Notes under the pieces: model-generated
Told to the model about the DNA's origin: nothing
Seen by the model: the letters and a program-made list of their open reading frames with translations, nothing else
Databases searched by the model: none
Shown: positions 13,673-64,000 of the stretch, piece by piece
Layout of the letters: every line of letters begins with the position of its first letter
How positions within the stretch are numbered: the stretch's first letter is position 1
Position numbers and translations under genes: made by a program
Assembly (NCBI GenBank): GCA_017439715.1
Contig: JAFSIR010000011.1
Coordinates: 1 to 64,000, forward strand
Direction: 5' to 3'
Origin: Clostridia bacterium
GTDB taxonomy: Bacteria; Bacillota; Clostridia; Christensenellales; QAND01
Length of the DNA: 64,000 nucleotides

Positions 13673-15201
13673 CCCACAACTTCCTCCCTCTTACTGCCGG
13701 CCATATACAGGCCCAGTTCCTGCGATGTAACGGTTTTCGGGTCAAGCTCTGCCACGATCTGGCCTTCATAGATCACCAGAATGCGGTCCGGCAGGCTCAT
13801 CACTTCTTCCAGTTCCAGCGAAACGAGCAGAATGGCCCGCCCCTGATCGCGCAGGTTGAGCAGCTCGCGCTGGATGTTTTCAATCGCGCCAACGTCCAGC
13901 CCGCGCGTGGGCTGCACGGCCAGCAGCACTTCGCTGCCGGTATCTACCTCACGGGCGATAATGGCTTTTTGCTGGTTGCCGCCCGACATGCTGCGCACCG
14001 TGGTGGCCGCGCCCTGGCCGCTGCGCACATCATACGCATCGATCAGCCGCTCGGCATTTTCGCGGATGGCACGGAAATCCAAAAATCCGTGTTTTTGGAA
14101 CGCCGGCGTATGATACCGCTTGAGCACAAGGTTTTCTTCCAGCGTATAATCCAGCACCAGCCCGTCTTTATGCCGGTCTTCCGGGATATGCGCAAGGCCG
14201 CTGTCGTTTCGTTTGCGCACGCTTGCCCGCGTGATGTCCTGGCCGGACAGCAGGATCGTGCCTTCATCGATGGGCCTTAGGCCCGCCAGCGCATAGATAA
14301 GCTCGCTCTGACCGTTGCCGTCAATACCGGCCAAACACACGATCTCGCCTTTTCTGACGTGGAAATTGATATTGTCCAGCAGCTTTTTGCGCCGGTTGCG
14401 GTTCCACATGGAAAGCCCGCGCACTTCCAGCGCCGTTTCCCCCGGGTGAGCCTCGTTCTTTTTCAGCTCCAGTTCCACCGGGCGGCCCACCATCATCCGG
14501 CTGAGCTCTTCGCGCGTGGTATCTTTCACATCCACCGTGCCGATGCAGCGCCCGCGCTGCAGCACTGTGCACCTGTCGGCCACGGCCATGATTTCGTTCA
14601 GTTTATGCGTGATGAAAAGGATGGATTTGCCTTCCTTGGCCAGCCCGCGCATGATCTCCATCAGCATATCGATCTCCTGCGGGGTGAGCACGGCGGTCGG
14701 CTCATCAAAAATCAGGATATCGTTGTCCCGATACAGCATTTTTAATATCTCAACGCGCTGCTGCATGCCCACTGTGATATCGCTGATCAACGCATCCGGC
14801 TCCACCCGCAGGCCGTATTGCTCGCTCAGCGCCAACACGCGTTTGCGCGCCTGATCCATTTTCAAAAGCCCGTGCCTGGTGCTTTCAACGCCCAGCACGA
14901 TGTTTTGCAGCACCGTAAAATTATGCACCAATTTAAAATGCTGGTGCACCATGCCGATGCCAAGGGCGTTTGCATCGTTCGGATCATCGATGCGAACCGT
15001 TTCCCCGTCTTTTTTGATCTCGCCGCTGTCCGGCTGATATAAACCGAACAACACACTCATCAGCGTGGATTTGCCAGCCCCGTTTTCACCCAAAAGCGCA
15101 TGAATCTCGCCCCTGCGCAGCTGCAGGGTGATATCGTCATTGGCGCGTATGCCGGGGAATTCTTTGGTGATATGCAGCATTTCAACAACATAATCTTCCA
15201 T
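13669..15201 (-). CDS. BMP-type nucleoside ABC transporter, duplicated ATP-binding protein
   Basis: A 510-residue protein with two ABC domains, as in NupO/RbsA-type ATPases. The first has GENGAGKST and a weak signature (TVGMQQRVEI); the second starts near residue 260, with GIDGNGQSEL as a degenerate Walker A and MSGGNQQK as signature. The ATG at 15201 begins MEDYVVEMLHI; the frame is open for another 101 codons upstream, but that part runs into the lipoprotein gene and reads as non-coding. GGAGGGG lies rather far (about 16 nt) from this ATG, so the exact start is a little uncertain. Confidence 0.93.
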   Translation of the reverse strand: MEDYVVEMLHITKEFPGIRANDDITLQLRRGEIHALLGENGAGKSTLMSVLFGLYQPDSGEIKKDGETVRIDDPNDANALGIGMVHQHFKLVHNFTVLQNIVLGVESTRHGLLKMDQARKRVLALSEQYGLRVEPDALISDITVGMQQRVEILKMLYRDNDILIFDEPTAVLTPQEIDMLMEIMRGLAKEGKSILFITHKLNEIMAVADRCTVLQRGRCIGTVDVKDTTREELSRMMVGRPVELELKKNEAHPGETALEVRGLSMWNRNRRKKLLDNINFHVRKGEIVCLAGIDGNGQSELIYALAGLRPIDEGTILLSGQDITRASVRKRNDSGLAHIPEDRHKDGLVLDYTLEENLVLKRYHTPAFQKHGFLDFRAIRENAERLIDAYDVRSGQGAATTVRSMSGGNQQKAIIAREVDTGSEVLLAVQPTRGLDVGAIENIQRELLNLRDQGRAILLVSLELEEVMSLPDRILVIYEGQIVAELDPKTVTSQELGLYMAGSKREEVVG

Positions 15202-58806: not shown

Positions 58807-60255
58807 CTATGCTTGTTTGCTTTTAGCGCCCGCTATGCGGGACACAATGGGCACTATGATAAGCGACAGCAGCATGGAGATCACGCCCAGCAGCGGGGCA
58901 AACGCGCCGTTGAATCCGGTGACGGCAGCGCCGCCCAGGTTTGTGAGCAGGCCCACCGCAATGCCGCTCCACGCGCCAGCCAAATTTGTGCGCTTATCGC
59001 GCAGCCCCCACAGAAACGGCCCAAGGAAGCAGCCGGCAATGGTGCCCCAGGAAAAGCTCATCAAAGACACAATGGCTTTAATCTTGCTCAGCGCGATGCC
59101 AACGCTGACGGCCACAAACAGCAAACACAGCGTTCGCATCAGCATAAGGGCCCGTTTTTCGCCCAGTTTGTGCGGGAACAGCACTTTTAAACAGTCGTTC
59201 GTTACCGCACCGGCGCTGGACATGGTCAGCCCGCTCAGCGTTGACATGGAGGCGGACAGCACCAGCACTACGATCAGCGCCATCAACCAGGGCGGCAGCA
59301 CGGCATCAAGCATGTTCGGCACCACCATATCCACATTGGCCGCGCCGGTGGCCGGGTCGATCGGCATGGTGTTGTTAAGCACCACGCGGCCAAACGCGCC
59401 GCATAAGTATGCCCCGCCGCCCACCACGGCAGCAAACAGCGTGGAGATCAGCGTGCCTCTTTTGATGGAAGCCTCGTCACGGATGGCGTAAAACTTGTGC
59501 ACCATCTGCGGCAGGCCCCACGGGCCCAGGCTGGTAAGCAGCACGATGGAACAAAGCGTTACAAGGTTGTTCCCCGTTGGGAGGCCCGCCAATGCCGGGT
59601 CAATGGCGGCCAGCTTGCCAAGGCCGTTTGCCAGCCCACCCACCGGCGCACTTCTGAGCACAAAAAACACCATCAGGCCGATGCCGCAAAGCATCACAAG
59701 GCCCTGAAAAAAATCAACCATCGTTGTGGTGGTATATCCGCCCACAATCTGGTACAGCGCGCTGATCGCCGCCATGCCGATCACGCACAGTATGAACGGC
59801 ACGCCAAACACCTGCTCAAACAGGTAGCTGATCCCCTGATACACAGAGGCGCTGTACGGCACCAAAAACACAAAAATGATCATGGCCGTTGTCAGCCGCA
59901 GCGCGCGTGAGCCAAACCGCGCCTCAAAATATGACGGCATGGTGGACACGCCCAACCGATGCGTGGCTTCACGCGTGGGCCTTGCCAGCACTTTCCATGC
60001 CAGCCAGCTGCCCAGCACCGCGTTGCCGATGCCGATGGCAACGGCGGTGATGCCAATATTCCAGCCGAATTTGCCCGCGTATCCCACCATGATCACAGCG
60101 GAAAAATAGGTTGTGCCATAGGCAAACGCGCTGAACCAGGCGCCCGTTCTCCGGCCGCCCAACATAAACTCACTTACATTGCTTGCTTTGTTTTTTTTGC
60201 GAAACGTTAAAAAACACAGAACAAAGGCATATAGCCCCAACACAAAAAACTTCAT
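58807..60255 (-). CDS. Sodium:solute symporter (SSS family)
   Basis: A 482-residue transporter with about 13 membrane helices and the LeuT-like fold of the SSS/SLC5 family. It contains the early GGRRTGAWFSAFAYGTTYFSA segment and GPWGLPQMVHKFYAI, similar to PutP-type proline or pantothenate carriers; the substrate is not settled. ATG at 60255 is preferred over 60264, because GGAAGGA ends 8 nt upstream of the former and 1 nt from the latter. Na+-coupled uptake fits the predicted Na+ V-ATPase. A strong promoter gives a leader of about 105 nt. Confidence 0.92.
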   Translation of the reverse strand: MKFFVLGLYAFVLCFLTFRKKNKASNVSEFMLGGRRTGAWFSAFAYGTTYFSAVIMVGYAGKFGWNIGITAVAIGIGNAVLGSWLAWKVLARPTREATHRLGVSTMPSYFEARFGSRALRLTTAMIIFVFLVPYSASVYQGISYLFEQVFGVPFILCVIGMAAISALYQIVGGYTTTTMVDFFQGLVMLCGIGLMVFFVLRSAPVGGLANGLGKLAAIDPALAGLPTGNNLVTLCSIVLLTSLGPWGLPQMVHKFYAIRDEASIKRGTLISTLFAAVVGGGAYLCGAFGRVVLNNTMPIDPATGAANVDMVVPNMLDAVLPPWLMALIVVLVLSASMSTLSGLTMSSAGAVTNDCLKVLFPHKLGEKRALMLMRTLCLLFVAVSVGIALSKIKAIVSLMSFSWGTIAGCFLGPFLWGLRDKRTNLAGAWSGIAVGLLTNLGGAAVTGFNGAFAPLLGVISMLLSLIIVPIVSRIAGAKSKQA

Positions 60256-60361
60256 TTTTTCCATCCTTCCGTTCTACCGTTCGGCCCATGGCCCTACCGT
60301 ACCCGAGCAGGACGCCTTGCCTGCCCCACCCTGACTCCGTCACTTCCGTTTTTCCAAGGTT
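60256..60361 (-). promoter_or_regulatory. Structured 5' leader of the symporter gene
   Basis: About 105 nt from the predicted transcription start to the ATG. It contains a GCAGG/CCTGC hairpin and a GGCC-ATG-GGCC hairpin followed by a repeated ACGG(T/A)AG pattern. It matches no riboswitch class I can name. Confidence 0.35.
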
Positions 60362-60367
60362 GAGGGC

Positions 60368-60396
60368 ATTATAGCACCGTTATTTGGGGGTGTCAA
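60368..60396 (-). promoter_or_regulatory. Promoter of the symporter gene
   Basis: On the minus strand a perfect TTGACA (60396-60391), 17-nt spacer, TATAAT (60373-60368). The -35 lies inside the last codons of the LysM gene. Confidence 0.9.
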
Positions 60397-60574
60397 CGCC
60401 TTTTTTCGGCACGATAAACACCTGCCCCGGCGCAATGCGCGCCGGGTGTACGCCCGGGTTGTGCACAAGCATCTCATGCAGCGTAACGCCATGTTTATCG
60501 GCCAGCATCGCCAGCGTTTGTCCTCGCTCAAGCCGCACAAACACACCGGCCGGGCAGCCCGCTTCTTCGTTCAT
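60380..60574 (-). CDS. LysM-domain mini-protein
   Basis: A 64-residue protein that is essentially one LysM domain (RLERGQTLAMLADKHGVTLHEMLVHNPGV...IAPGQVFIVP). LysM binds peptidoglycan or chitin-like glycans. There is no signal peptide or membrane segment, so it may be cytoplasmic, a spore-coat type protein, or exported by another route; sporulation genes lie next door. It sits just upstream of the symporter with the latter's promoter in its 3' end. Confidence 0.75.
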   Translation of the reverse strand: MNEEAGCPAGVFVRLERGQTLAMLADKHGVTLHEMLVHNPGVHPARIAPGQVFIVPKKGVDTPK

Positions 60575-60656
60575 CCCTTTCGCCCCTTGCTTTATCCTAT
60601 GCCCCCGCTTTCCTTTTTATCACACTCAAACACCCGTTTTCCCACCCCTGCACAGG

Positions 60657-60685
60657 TTGACAAACCTCCGCTTGGATTTTACAAT
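60657..60685 (+). promoter_or_regulatory. Promoter of tRNA-Arg
   Basis: TTGACA (60657-60662), 17-nt spacer, TACAAT (60680-60685). Confidence 0.85.
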
Positions 60686-60722
60686 GTGGTAACAGCGTTG
60701 TGAAAAACAGCGCCCGGATCGG

Positions 60723-60799
60723 GCACCTATAGCTCAGTAGGATAGAGCGGTCGCCTCCTAAGCGACAGGCCACAGGTTCGACTCCTGTTAGGTGCGCCA
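60723..60799 (+). tRNA. tRNA-Arg(CCT)
   Basis: A 77-nt tRNA including encoded CCA. Acceptor stem GCACCTA/TAGGTGC, discriminator G; anticodon stem GTCGC/GCGAC around loop CTCCTAA gives anticodon CCT; T arm ACAGG-TTCGACT-CCTGT. Its 3' half is repeated at 62245-62290, suggesting it is an integration site. Confidence 0.97.
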
Positions 60800-60850
60800 T
60801 AAAGCCCCGAAAAACGAGTGTTTTTCAGGGCTTTGTTTTTCTTGCTCGCT
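60755..60850 (+). repeat. Direct repeat copy 1 (tRNA-Arg 3' half plus terminator), left end of a putative element
   Basis: Runs from the anticodon loop through the CCA and the following terminator to CTTGCTCG. About 86 percent identical by eye to 62245-62340, 1,490 bases away. Confidence 0.8.
60801..60840 (+). terminator. Terminator of tRNA-Arg
   Basis: AAAGCCC / GGGCTTT with an inner GAAAAAC/GTTTTTC stem and a following T-run. Confidence 0.85.
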
Positions 60851-60958
60851 CATTTTCACGAGTGGGGTTATTTGTTTTGTCATTTCATGCATCTTGCCGT
60901 TTTCTTTTCGCGTTGCTTCATAGAATTCTTCACATTTGTGTGGCATAATTAGGGCGTT

Positions 60959-61318
60959 GTGTTAGAATTCGCGAGGGAGAAGATTATAACGCTTAAAGAT
61001 ATAAATAGCGGTCCGAACGGAATGATATGGGCGGTATTTGCTGTTTTGGTTTTAATGAGTATCATATTGCTTTCCGGTCGCGGTGCAAGATTGATTGCAG
61101 GATATAATACCGCAAGCAAAAAAGGAAAAAACGAATACGATGAAAAGAAATTAAGCAGAGTGGCAGGCGCAGGCTTATCTGTGATGACAGTTTCGGTTTT
61201 TATAATGGCAATGTGGAAAGAGGCTTTACCATCGGTATTTATATGCATTTTTCAGGCAATTGCGGTCATTGATTGTGTGGTTATGATTGTATTGATGAAT
61301 ACTGTTTGTAAGAGATGA
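60959..61318 (+). CDS. DUF3784-family small membrane protein
   Basis: Up to 119 residues with three hydrophobic segments (about 22-40, 72-87 and 90-113). The basic loop LIAGYNTASKKGKNEYDEKKLSRVAG is the DUF3784 hallmark; these proteins are common in Clostridia and of unknown function, and often travel with mobile or antibiotic-response loci. The start is uncertain: GTG at 60959 is close to a possible -10 (TGGCATAAT), while GAGGGAG at 60973-60979 favours a later start; ATG at 61022 keeps the membrane part. AT-rich codon use unlike the surrounding genome. Confidence 0.75.
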   Translation: MLEFAREKIITLKDINSGPNGMIWAVFAVLVLMSIILLSGRGARLIAGYNTASKKGKNEYDEKKLSRVAGAGLSVMTVSVFIMAMWKEALPSVFICIFQAIAVIDCVVMIVLMNTVCKR

Positions 61319-61344
61319 TTCCCAATTTGGCGAGGTGAACTACT

Positions 61345-62016
61345 ATGACAGCTAAATTATTCATACAGGCAATCACGAAGTTTTTATTAGGTGTTGTTTT
61401 AGTTGGCATGTTATTATTTTTGCCTGCAGGCACGCTTTCATTTTTTAACGGCTGGTTATTGATGAGCATTTTATTTATTCCAATGTTTTTTGCGGGAATT
61501 GTAATGATGTTCAAAAATCCCGGTCTGTTAAAAAGCCGACTGAATGCAAAAGAAAAGCAGCAAGAACAAAGCCTGGTTGTAAAATTAAGCGGACTCATGT
61601 TTTTGGTAGGTTTTATCGTGGCAGGACTTGGTGTCCGTTTTAACTGGTATGCATTCCCCACACCCGTCGTGATTGGTGCGACCGTGTTATTTCTTGTTGC
61701 TTACATTCTTTATGCAGAAGTTCTAAGAGAAAACACATACCTTAGTCGTACCATTGAGGTGCAAGAAAACCAAAAGGTAATAGACACAGGGTTGTATGGT
61801 ATCGTCAGACACCCAATGTACAGTTCCACATTGCTTTTGTTTTTATCGATACCACTGGTGTTAGGTTCCGTATATTCTTTTTTGATTTTTCTTGCGTATC
61901 CGTTTATCATTGCCAAAAGGATTAAAGGGGAAGAAGAATTCCTCGAAAAAGAACTAAGCGGATATCGTGAATATAAGCAAAAAGTCAAATATCGCTTGAT
62001 CCCATTCATTTGGTAA
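61345..62016 (+). CDS. ICMT/DUF1295-family membrane methyltransferase
   Basis: A 223-residue protein with about six membrane helices. The C-terminal half has the SAM-binding signature of the isoprenylcysteine carboxyl methyltransferase-like family: GLYGIVRHPMYSSTLL and RIKGEEEFLEKELSGYREYKQKVKYRLIP. Such enzymes methylate lipids or small molecules at the membrane; the bacterial substrates are mostly unknown. GGCGAGGTG RBS before the ATG, 26 nt after the DUF3784 gene. AT-rich, probably foreign. Confidence 0.88.
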   Translation: MTAKLFIQAITKFLLGVVLVGMLLFLPAGTLSFFNGWLLMSILFIPMFFAGIVMMFKNPGLLKSRLNAKEKQQEQSLVVKLSGLMFLVGFIVAGLGVRFNWYAFPTPVVIGATVLFLVAYILYAEVLRENTYLSRTIEVQENQKVIDTGLYGIVRHPMYSSTLLLFLSIPLVLGSVYSFLIFLAYPFIIAKRIKGEEEFLEKELSGYREYKQKVKYRLIPFIW

Positions 62017-62244
62017 CGATCAATCAAATTCCAATTCAGAGAAGTGCCCTATCATAGAACAAGCTCGATAACAAACCAAGGTGCAAGCGTTTAAACCAAA
62101 ACATTTCGTGCAAATATAACCGTTTTCCTGAATCCAACCCCTCACAACCCCCCTCTGATTTGTCGGGCGAACACAAGGAGCAAAAAATAAAGGTGCGGGA
62201 TCATCGGGCGCAGGAAAAGGCTCTGCAACTGTGTTTCGAGATCA
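62017..62244. other. Gene-free stretch inside the putative element
   Basis: No supported gene. AT-rich at first, then mixed; it ends at the second copy of the tRNA-Arg 3' half. No integrase gene or remnant was recognised. Confidence 0.5.
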
Positions 62245-62340
62245 CTCCCAAGCGACAGGCCACAGGTTCGATTCCTGTTAATTGCGTCATAAAGCCCCGA
62301 AAAACACTTGTTTTTCGGGGCTTTTGTTTTTCTTGCTCGT
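62245..62340 (+). repeat. Direct repeat copy 2 (diverged tRNA-Arg 3' half plus terminator)
   Basis: Matches 60755-60850 from CTCC(C)A through AGCGACAGGCCACAGGTTCG and the T arm; the acceptor end is decayed (AATTGCGTCA instead of AGGTGCGCCA). There is no 5' half, so this is not a tRNA gene. It looks like the far attachment site of an element inserted at the tRNA. Confidence 0.8.
62291..62330 (+). terminator. Duplicated terminator
   Basis: AAAGCCCCGAAAAAC / TTTTTCGGGGCTTT stem with T-run, a better-paired copy of the tRNA-Arg terminator. It ends transcripts from the ICMT gene. Confidence 0.8.
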
Positions 62341-62446
62341 TCTTTTTCCGAACGGGGTTTAGTAAAACTCATTTATATAATGTTTTTCCCGCAACCCGTT
62401 CACTTTGTTGTTCCGTTTTTCGCAGTTTGCATGATCAAATTTTCAT

Positions 62447-63178
62447 TCAATCAAGAATTCTGCCATCGGTAGAAACGGTCACTACCTGCCAGGGGATGAA
62501 CTTGCCGCTGGCCCGCAAGGCGTTTTGTGCCGCCGCCTGAATACCGCCGCAGCAAGGAACTTCCATCCTCAGAATGGTCAACGACTGAATGTTGTTGTTT
62601 TGGATGATCGCAGTCAGCTTCTCGGTATAGTCAACCGCGTCCAGCTTCGGACAACCGATCAGCGTTATCTTGCCTCGCATAAACTCTTCGTGGATATTGG
62701 CATAGGCATATGCGGTGCAGTCCGCCGCGATCAGAAGCTTAACTCCATCGAAAAACGGAGCGGTCACCGGCACAAGCTTGATCTGGCAAGGCCACTGTCC
62801 CAATCTGGAAATCGGCTTAGATATATAGGCCGTTGTATCCACCTGCGGTTCTTTTGCCAAAGACCTCATTTGAGAGCCGGGGCAGCCGCCGAGGTGACGG
62901 TTGTGTTCCATATTGCCCGTGTGCGCGCCTGCATTCTTCTGATGCGCTTTTACAGCCGCTTCATCATAGGCCGGCGCTTCGCGCTCTTCAAAGGAGATCG
63001 CATCCATCGGGCAACTCGGCAAACAATCCCCCAGCCCGTCGCAGAAATGCTCTCTTGTGAGTTTTGCCTTCCCGTCGATAATCTCAATCGCGCCTTCGTG
63101 GCAAGCCGCGGCGCAAAGCCCACAGCCGTTGCATTTATCTTCATCAATGCGGATGATTTTCCGAACTTCTTTTACCAT
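62447..63178 (-). CDS. 4Fe-4S cluster protein divergent from a Crp/Fnr regulator
   Basis: A 243-residue protein. The N-terminal ferredoxin domain has a full Cx2Cx2Cx3C (CNGCGLCAAAC) and a second motif CDGLGDCLPSC in which one Cys is missing. The rest has conserved cysteines (LGGCPGSQ, LIAADCTAYAYANIHEEF, LIGCPKLDA, VPCCGGI), typical of a clostridial Fe-S family of unknown reaction that is often linked to Crp/Fnr regulators and nitrosative-stress genes such as hcp. AAGGAGG precedes the ATG. It reads away from the regulator, with a shared palindrome between them. Confidence 0.85.
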   Translation of the reverse strand: MVKEVRKIIRIDEDKCNGCGLCAAACHEGAIEIIDGKAKLTREHFCDGLGDCLPSCPMDAISFEEREAPAYDEAAVKAHQKNAGAHTGNMEHNRHLGGCPGSQMRSLAKEPQVDTTAYISKPISRLGQWPCQIKLVPVTAPFFDGVKLLIAADCTAYAYANIHEEFMRGKITLIGCPKLDAVDYTEKLTAIIQNNNIQSLTILRMEVPCCGGIQAAAQNALRASGKFIPWQVVTVSTDGRILD

Positions 63179-63191
63179 TTTCTGTCCCTCC

Positions 63192-63220
63192 TTGTTTTTC
63201 TGTGTTTATTTTAGTATAAT
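63192..63220 (+). promoter_or_regulatory. Promoter of the Crp/Fnr gene
   Basis: TTGTTT (63192-63197), 17-nt spacer, TATAAT (63215-63220). On the opposite strand an overlapping TATACT (63218-63213) can serve the Fe-S gene. Confidence 0.75.
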
Positions 63221-63230
63221 CCCGAGCAGA

Positions 63231-63254
63231 AAAATGTGGTTATAACCACATTTT
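63231..63254. promoter_or_regulatory. 24-bp perfect palindrome, probable Crp/Fnr operator
   Basis: The half-site is AAAATGTGGTTA, perfectly mirrored. It lies a few bases downstream of the predicted start of the regulator transcript and about 36 bp upstream of the start for the Fe-S gene. Confidence 0.8.
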
Positions 63255-63276
63255 GCAGAAAAGAGGGAAAGATTTT

Positions 63277-63951
63277 TTGAAAAGTGAATTTCTTCAGTCC
63301 AGCCGGCTGTTTCGGGGTATGGCGCAAAATGAAATAGAGGCTGCCCTGGAAGCGCTGAACGCTTCGAGCAAATTCTACCATAAAGGGGAATACATCCTTC
63401 ATGCCGGGGACAGAACGGATAGCGTTTGCATCGTGATCACCGGCAGTATTACCATCGAAAGCAACGATATGTGGGGTAACCGAACGATCCTGAACATCAT
63501 GGGCGCCGGCGATTTTTTTGCCGAAACATACGCAATCCTGAAAAACGAAACCTTGTTGGTGGATGCCGTGGCAAACAAAGCATCAGAGGTGTTGTTTCTC
63601 CGCGTGGACAAGGTGTTTGGCGCAATGAATCCTCAGCCGTGGCAAAGCAAGCTTGTTCGCAATCTCCTGATCATAACGGCCAACAAAAATCTTATGCTTT
63701 CAGGGCGTTCTTTTCATATTTCACCCAAAACAGCAAGAGGAAAGATCATGGCTTATTTGAACTCCGTTTCCTTGAAAAAACACAGCCGAACGTTTGATAT
63801 CCCCTTTGACCGCCAACAGATGGCTGATTACCTGAACCTTGAAAGAACCGCGCTTTCAAAGGAGCTTGGGCGCATGAAACAAGAGGGGATTATCGATTTT
63901 CAAAAAAACCATTTCAAATTGCTTTTATCTGCCGATACAGCCAAATTATAA
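63277..63951 (+). CDS. Crp/Fnr-family transcription regulator
   Basis: A 224-residue regulator. The start is TTG at 63277, since GAGGG at 63263-63267 is 9 nt upstream; the frame reaches back to 63253 but would put the RBS inside the gene. Residues about 10-125 form the cNMP-type sensor beta-barrel (KGEYILHAGDRTDSVCIVITGSI; GAGDFFAET), and the end is the Crp-type winged helix with QQMADYLNLERTALSKELGRMKQEGII. It lacks an FNR-type N-terminal Cys cluster, so it senses something else, possibly through haem or a small ligand as in HcpR-like proteins. Likely controls itself and the Fe-S gene. Confidence 0.9.
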   Translation: MKSEFLQSSRLFRGMAQNEIEAALEALNASSKFYHKGEYILHAGDRTDSVCIVITGSITIESNDMWGNRTILNIMGAGDFFAETYAILKNETLLVDAVANKASEVLFLRVDKVFGAMNPQPWQSKLVRNLLIITANKNLMLSGRSFHISPKTARGKIMAYLNSVSLKKHSRTFDIPFDRQQMADYLNLERTALSKELGRMKQEGIIDFQKNHFKLLLSADTAKL

Positions 63952-63959
63952 AAAAGCCA

Positions 63960-63994
63960 ATACCCCTGCGCTGAACCTGCTCAGGGGTATTTTC
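63960..63994 (+). terminator. Terminator of the Crp/Fnr gene
   Basis: ATACCCCTG / CAGGGGTAT 9-bp stem with a 13-nt loop, then TTTT. Confidence 0.85.
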
Positions 63995-64000
63995 CTATCA

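Follow-up and report, generated by a model that had tools for sequence, protein, structure and literature searches.

The window, as the whole stretch of 64,000 nucleotides from a Clostridia bacterium is termed here, contains a complete tRNA-Arg(CCT) gene at 60723-60799 on the forward strand, on which all other features of the window described below also lie. It is detected by both ARAGORN, for which it is the only tRNA-Arg(CCT) call in the window, and Rfam, and its stems pair perfectly, with 7/7 pairs in the acceptor stem (GCACCTA/TAGGTGC). A sigma-70-like promoter is predicted upstream of the gene (TTGACA-17-TACAAT, 60657-60685; one mismatch to consensus). From the anticodon loop onwards (CTCC...), the gene is the first copy of a direct repeat, each copy of which comprises a tRNA 3' half, a terminator hairpin and about 30-35 bp more. 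Copy 1 (60755-60869) holds the 3' half of the complete gene, a terminator-like inverted repeat (60801-60834) and some 35 bp further, whilst copy 2 (62245-62359) holds a decayed, orphan tRNA 3' half with its terminator, directly upstream of which a 5' half is absent. Self-BLAST of the whole window aligns the copies at 87.07% identity over 116 columns with an E-value (7e-29) that rules out a chance origin, and finds no other direct repeat at E 1e-4 within the 64 kb; a separate repeat search delimits an 86-nt core (60755-60840 and 62245-62330, 87%) with a start-to-start distance of 1490. The sequence-only reading of this DNA had described a tRNA-Arg 3' half and terminator repeated 1,490 bases downstream without a 5' half, which self-BLAST, ARAGORN and Rfam bear out, and had judged the copies by eye to be about 86% identical, close to the 87% computed. 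It was right about the repeat itself and too narrow about its extent, as the similarity passes the terminators by about 30 bp.

Copy 2 scores 21.6 bits against the Rfam tRNA model, below the gathering score of 29, and is therefore regarded as a half tRNA rather than a gene; its acceptor strand (TAATTGC) forms 5/7 pairs with the 5' half of the window's tRNA. Its first eight bases (62245-62252), which correspond to the anticodon loop, read CTCCCAAG and are taken as the attachment core (CTCCTAAG in other genomes), the breakpoint being equal to that of the related insertions described below. No orphan 5' half lies within 500 bp upstream of the complete tRNA, and the repeat occurs nowhere in the window's genome (1.2 Mb in 38 contigs, 81% complete) beyond its two copies. 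Matches of the repeats to Rfam sRNA and miRNA families, which include the terminator hairpin, fall below gathering scores and were rejected, as were phage records matching the region, whose similarity is confined to the tRNA part.

The 1.49 kb between the copies encodes two proteins, a 119-residue DUF3784 protein (60959-61318; PF12650, E 5e-19) and a 223-residue membrane methyltransferase of the ICMT/PEMT type (61345-62016), assigned by family and relative searches. No recombinase is present among the open reading frames of the insert and the 81% complete genome contains no PF00589 match, so the earlier statement that no integrase is left between the copies is correct and extends to the entire assembly. 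The window thus has a complete tRNA at one end and a displaced tRNA fragment at the other with no integrase between them, and for this reason is called a relic rather than an island. Of 151 genomes of the order, 11 encode DUF3784 relatives, a count that includes the genome of the window, and neither insert gene is present in the same-family genomes G001 and G002. Relatives of the methyltransferase, at about 69-91% protein identity, were compared in 80 retrieved loci, mostly from metagenome-assembled genomes of Clostridia and also from Treponema, Sphaerochaetaceae and Fundicoccus. Across these 80 loci DNA similarity is limited to the gene and, at most, some 25 bp on each side, an abrupt ending near the gene ends that marks the methyltransferase as a travelling gene; judged by these comparisons, it is a single gene of unusual mobility. 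Against plasmids, the methyltransferase has only matches below 60% identity, and no phage or viral carrier of either insert gene was confirmed.

How the methyltransferase gene travels may be hinted at by local repeats, which flank it in 3 of 75 loci as against 2 of 357 other genes (the window locus, and loci or genes less than 600 bp from a locus end, being left out of this count). This is suggestive of a cassette moving between repeated terminators. Direct repeats of 57-150 bp of the local terminator-promoter region flank the gene at L050:4836-6346, L013:4882-5792 and L006:919-2098; L050 has an additional, third copy beyond the next small gene, and its genome contains this repeat at no other place. 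Sense tRNAs lie 0-500 bp upstream of the methyltransferase in 6 of the 80 loci (nine tRNAs in all), with one within 500 bp downstream, and no tRNA-end repeats were found at those tRNA-adjoining loci.

Among the genomes compared, the genus is represented by the window's genome alone and the family by three. In G002 the region upstream of tRNA-Arg(CCT) encodes a LysM-type protein followed by SpoIID-like and M23-like proteins (identified by similarity to the window's proteins, the names being our reading), as does the window's neighbourhood. The orthologous tRNA-Arg(CCT) is cut there at the anticodon loop: the 5' half, of which 40 bases match those of the window exactly, is preceded by a predicted promoter of the same type as at the window's tRNA and followed by CTCCTAAG, foreign DNA and then, at the contig end, another tRNA-Arg 5' half of different sequence. 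An intact 3' half is located on another contig of G002 and is directly preceded by 49 bp (C27:54-102) that align to the 49 bp before the core in the window (62196-62244), the right end of the element in both. Right end and 3' half together align over 98 bp at 85.7% identity (E 3e-27). The two ends in G002 lie on two contigs and may belong to different elements, and since G002 lacks both the methyltransferase and DUF3784 genes, the insertions in the window and in G002 may be separate events. The right-end motif, allowing up to two mismatches, was found in 3 of 396 genomes of the order, namely the window's, G002 and G152, the last being a weak match with two mismatches and a changed core; it was not found in viral contigs. 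About 70 bp after the core are common to the left ends of G002 and G218, which belong to different families. By our reading, the only PF00589 protein of G002 is XerD-like and is encoded beside LexA. A second duplication is present on contig C27 of G002 (L128; 130-255 and 368-492, 238 bp apart), comprising a tRNA 3' end and about 110 bp beyond at 75.6% identity. At the position of the window's locus, G002 is therefore syntenic and occupied and G001 has a single, non-syntenic tRNA copy; no syntenic empty site was found among the three family genomes.

Similar scars are distributed more widely across the order, in which 278 of 396 genomes have tRNA-Arg(CCT) matches. Inspection of neighbourhoods revealed extra 5' halves shortly upstream of complete tRNA-Arg(CCT) genes in G244, G339, G168 and G063. 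An exact pattern for a 5' half without its tRNA matched 8 of 396 genomes, seven of them true cases (G168, G202, G218, G386, G062, G002 and G270) and one false, the tRNA of G056 being complete; this pattern misses variants, as in G244, G339, G063 and G141. A 5' scar precedes the complete gene in 7 of 37 loci (G202, G063, G244, G141, G270, G339 and G168), a proportion that is not a frequency because the 37 are the best tRNA matches plus three loci from the pattern search. The scars score 58-80, the next best hit 30 (a tRNA-Met-like match in a tRNA cluster) and shuffled controls at most 29. In G002, G218, G386 and G062 the contig ends after the orphan 5' half before any complete tRNA is reached, and a search allowing up to three mismatches found no partner 3' half in G244, G339 or G202. 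Altogether, orphan 5' halves ending at CTCCTAAG are present in at least 11 genomes carrying eight family labels (f1, f4, f11, f13, f14, f24, f28 and f31). Another orphan tRNA-Arg(CCT) 3' half, preceded by a different end, occurs in G062 (L275; C25:16858-16888, minus strand). Repeat-like matches of 18-42 bases to the tRNA-Arg(CCT) 3' half, situated 118-149 bp downstream in L118 (G146), L148 (G136) and L152 (G355), perhaps represent another insertion class using the tRNA 3' end.

In G270 a single 144 kb contig contains an orphan 5' half (107079-107118), 126 bp, a complete tRNA-Arg(CCT) (107245-107321), about 16 kb and then an orphan 3' half from 123549. G168 repeats this order on a smaller scale (5' half 14761-14800, 33 bp, complete tRNA 14834-14910, 5.8 kb, 3' half from 20738), and in G063 the orphan 3' half lies on a contig other than that of the 5' half. 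In all three genomes the orphan 5' and orphan 3' halves form 7/7 acceptor pairs with one another, against 3/7 (G270) and 5/7 (G168) between the orphan 5' half and the 3' strand of the element's tRNA; in G063 the orphan and element tRNAs are of one type, which makes this comparison uninformative. Anticodon stem pairs number 5/5, 4/5 and 5/5 in G270, G168 and G063, and have no discriminating power alone. The complementarity of the orphan halves indicates that they derive from a host tRNA cut in its anticodon loop and that the complete tRNA between them came with the insert. The ends share an 8 bp core, from which G168 and G063 each deviate by one base at one of their ends, and the element-borne complete tRNA-Arg(CCT) is located 30-200 bp inside the left end. 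A pattern search, within the completeness of each assembly, returned one complete tRNA-Arg(CCT) gene each in G168, G063, G244, G339, G202 and G270; with the host tRNA cut, the element's copy is thus the only complete gene found. G270, G168 and G063 therefore combine a short core, a host tRNA that is split and not rebuilt, and a tRNA of the same anticodon aboard, the features by which tRNA-dependent integration is recognised. The window lacks an orphan 5' half before an element-borne tRNA and so is not counted as a member of this group, its kinship being drawn only from the shared right end.

Two further features of the left ends bear on the order of events and on expression. Two successive 5' halves stand in G202 and G218, and in G062 the second is more diverged; such stacking is most simply read as the tRNA of an earlier element having been cut by a later arrival. 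Promoter-like sites with no more than one mismatch precede the first half in G339, G202, G168 and G002, the second half in G062 and the tRNA of the window, and none was seen at the other five loci. No such site occurs in the gap before the element tRNA at the loci scanned. This distribution suggests that the host promoter would read through into the element's tRNA.

The element of G270, 16.4 kb in length, encodes a tyrosine integrase (PF00589, with a SAM-like N-terminus), KwaA- and KwaB-like proteins of the Kiwa system, type I restriction-modification proteins and a PDC-S57 protein. A small gene adjoining the integrase, without a family match, may encode an excisionase, and a weak match to phrog_428 identifies a possible replication initiator. 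Phage structural families were not detected among the proteins searched from this element, a few small open reading frames lying outside the search. Beside the tRNA in G244 are genes for a tyrosine integrase, an HTH_17/excisionase-like protein and a MazF-like protein; the integrases of G270 and G244 share 27% identity over 263 residues and hence are not close relatives. No tyrosine integrase was found in the elements of G168 and G063, where PF00589 matches sit on contigs without tRNA halves, and the G168 element contains only a resolvase-like piece below Pfam's cut-off. These two elements may have decayed or, in G063, the middle of the element may have escaped assembly.

In viral contigs the geometry of these elements was found in no stretch with short gaps and in one (L277) with longer gaps. 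There (L277:3984-4119), a CTCCTAAG core lacking a 5' half stands a short distance before a complete tRNA-Arg(CCT), with phage lysis genes on one side of the whole and a ParA gene on the other; this is possibly the attP of a phage of this type, or else a chromosomal junction. Viral contigs encode relatives of the G270 integrase, with 25-36% identity over the longer matches, and in L268 and L271 these relatives adjoin complete tRNA-Arg genes of other anticodons, no split tRNA being seen in L268.

Taken together, these observations favour, with a probability of roughly 0.75, the interpretation that the window's half tRNA is the scar of an old site-specific integration in the anticodon loop of tRNA-Arg(CCT) and the relic of an element that carried a replacement tRNA. 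Such an element would have recombined at the 8 bp core, leaving at its far junction the orphan 3' half that was originally the host's, and the replacement tRNA would have been transcribed from the promoter of the host tRNA. Subsequently, the integrase and most of the element would have been lost, leaving two cargo genes, and the left scar would have disappeared when the host 5' half recombined with the element's tRNA. In G063 and G270, too, the similarity between the element's tRNA and the orphan half extends past the tRNA into the terminator, which favours this loss of the left scar without proving it. On this basis the window most likely represents a decayed member of the class to which its relatives' elements appear to belong, and its element would have brought its own tRNA. 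The proposal in the sequence-only reading that the repeat is the footprint of integration at a tRNA is supported by the junction geometry, the element end shared with G002 and the independent same-site insertions in other families; the great age it assigned to the event fits the decay of copy 2 (5/7 acceptor pairs) compared with the intact 3' half in G002.

As the window retains no orphan 5' half, its tRNA may instead have been rebuilt classically. In this scenario, an attP carrying only a 3' half and terminator restored the tRNA at the left and displaced the host's 3' half to the right, after which the island decayed. This is the usual geometry of islands in tRNA genes (PMC4383910), and an element with a 3' half only would leave an identical picture at the window, where the complete tRNA lies behind a host promoter with perfect stems and no 5' scar. 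Against it, the element end is common to G002, whose cut 5' half has no 3' half after it, and the similarity continues about 70 bp past the tRNA. Attachment cores of tRNA-targeted islands usually reach less far beyond the tRNA than this, and we regard the classical scenario as possible and somewhat doubtful. Alternatively, the tRNA-terminator segment might have been duplicated locally in tandem, after which the second copy lost its 5' half and two foreign genes entered between the copies. This would account for similarity through and past the terminator and has a parallel in L006, L013 and L050, in which the methyltransferase is flanked by local terminator repeats unrelated to tRNA, those of L050 being confined to that place in its genome. 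It is nevertheless unlikely, given that the breakpoint, like those of 11 other genomes, lies in the anticodon loop, that the bases preceding it are the shared 49 bp element end and not tRNA, and that the missing 5' half is left unexplained. Group I introns are known in the anticodon loop of tRNA-Arg(CCT), and the position of the breakpoint would suit a copy that is the 3' exon of an interrupted gene; with the 3' half present twice, one tRNA complete and no Rfam group I intron match in 60000-64000 at E 1, this origin is extremely improbable.

A broader reading, to which we assign slightly better than an even chance, joins the integration scar of the window with the elements of its relatives. 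Integrative elements of this order, defence islands included, would live by taking over tRNA-Arg(CCT): a newcomer cuts the working copy in the anticodon loop and installs its replacement a few dozen nucleotides past the old promoter, where it is the cell's sole source while integrated. Later elements would cut the tRNA of earlier ones, a row of 5' halves being an ordered record of invasion, and the window would represent a late stage with the last 3' scar and two cargo genes. Alone, the window would be an old integration scar of a known sort; what appears to be new is that elements in many families of one order replace tRNA-Arg(CCT). No earlier description of tRNA-Arg(CCT) integration in Clostridia, or of island-borne replacement tRNAs, was found in the open-licence literature, which is weak evidence of novelty. 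That the relatives' elements carry a whole replacement tRNA, and not a 3' half only, is not visible from the window alone. Complementary split tRNA halves around a self-supplied tRNA provide a test for tRNA-dependent integration that requires only sequence, and searches restricted to complete tRNA genes overlook such scars. The wider implications are that elements without recognised phage genes, and with defence cargo, are able to use tRNA-dependent integration and that repeated replacement of a conserved host tRNA gene is possible.

Lactobacillus johnsonii, one of the hosts in which a comparable replacement has been described, belongs to the Bacillota. Its prophage Lj965, as described in PMC10865867, leaves the host tRNA unrebuilt and encodes the cognate tRNA; the host tRNA is likewise not rebuilt here, and Lj965 differs in being a recognised phage. 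Fragments of tRNA genes are treated in PMC9897764. In Islander genomic islands (PMC4383910), site-specific integration into a tRNA gene leaves a displaced fragment at the far end, a geometry that the window fits; in the relatives, by contrast, the host gene is replaced by a separate complete gene instead of being restored. In Sinorhizobium meliloti, phage-related sequences substitute host tRNA genes, for which the authors cite tRNA-dependent lysogeny (PMC11476347). The host tRNA is there likewise replaced by an element-borne isoacceptor, the differences being that the host is an alphaproteobacterium and the sequences are phage-related; a second Sinorhizobium study reports no tRNA replacement in its prophages (PMC12429752). 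The closest logic is that of tRNA-dependent lysogeny, defined for the mycobacteriophages Fionnbharth, Gaia and others (Guerrero-Bustamante and Hatfull 2024, PMC10865867), and the frequency of such integration outside actinobacteriophages is posed as a question in that report. The relatives' elements are likened to it by integration geometry. The elements described here share the logic of those actinobacteriophages, also in cases without recognised phage genes, and are in places stacked; their target is tRNA-Arg(CCT), and that of G270 carries defence genes and no recognised phage structural gene. Moreover, whereas the Fionnbharth tRNA has its own strong promoter (PMC10865867), the element tRNAs here are set 30-200 bp in from the left end, and no good promoter was seen in the intervening gap.
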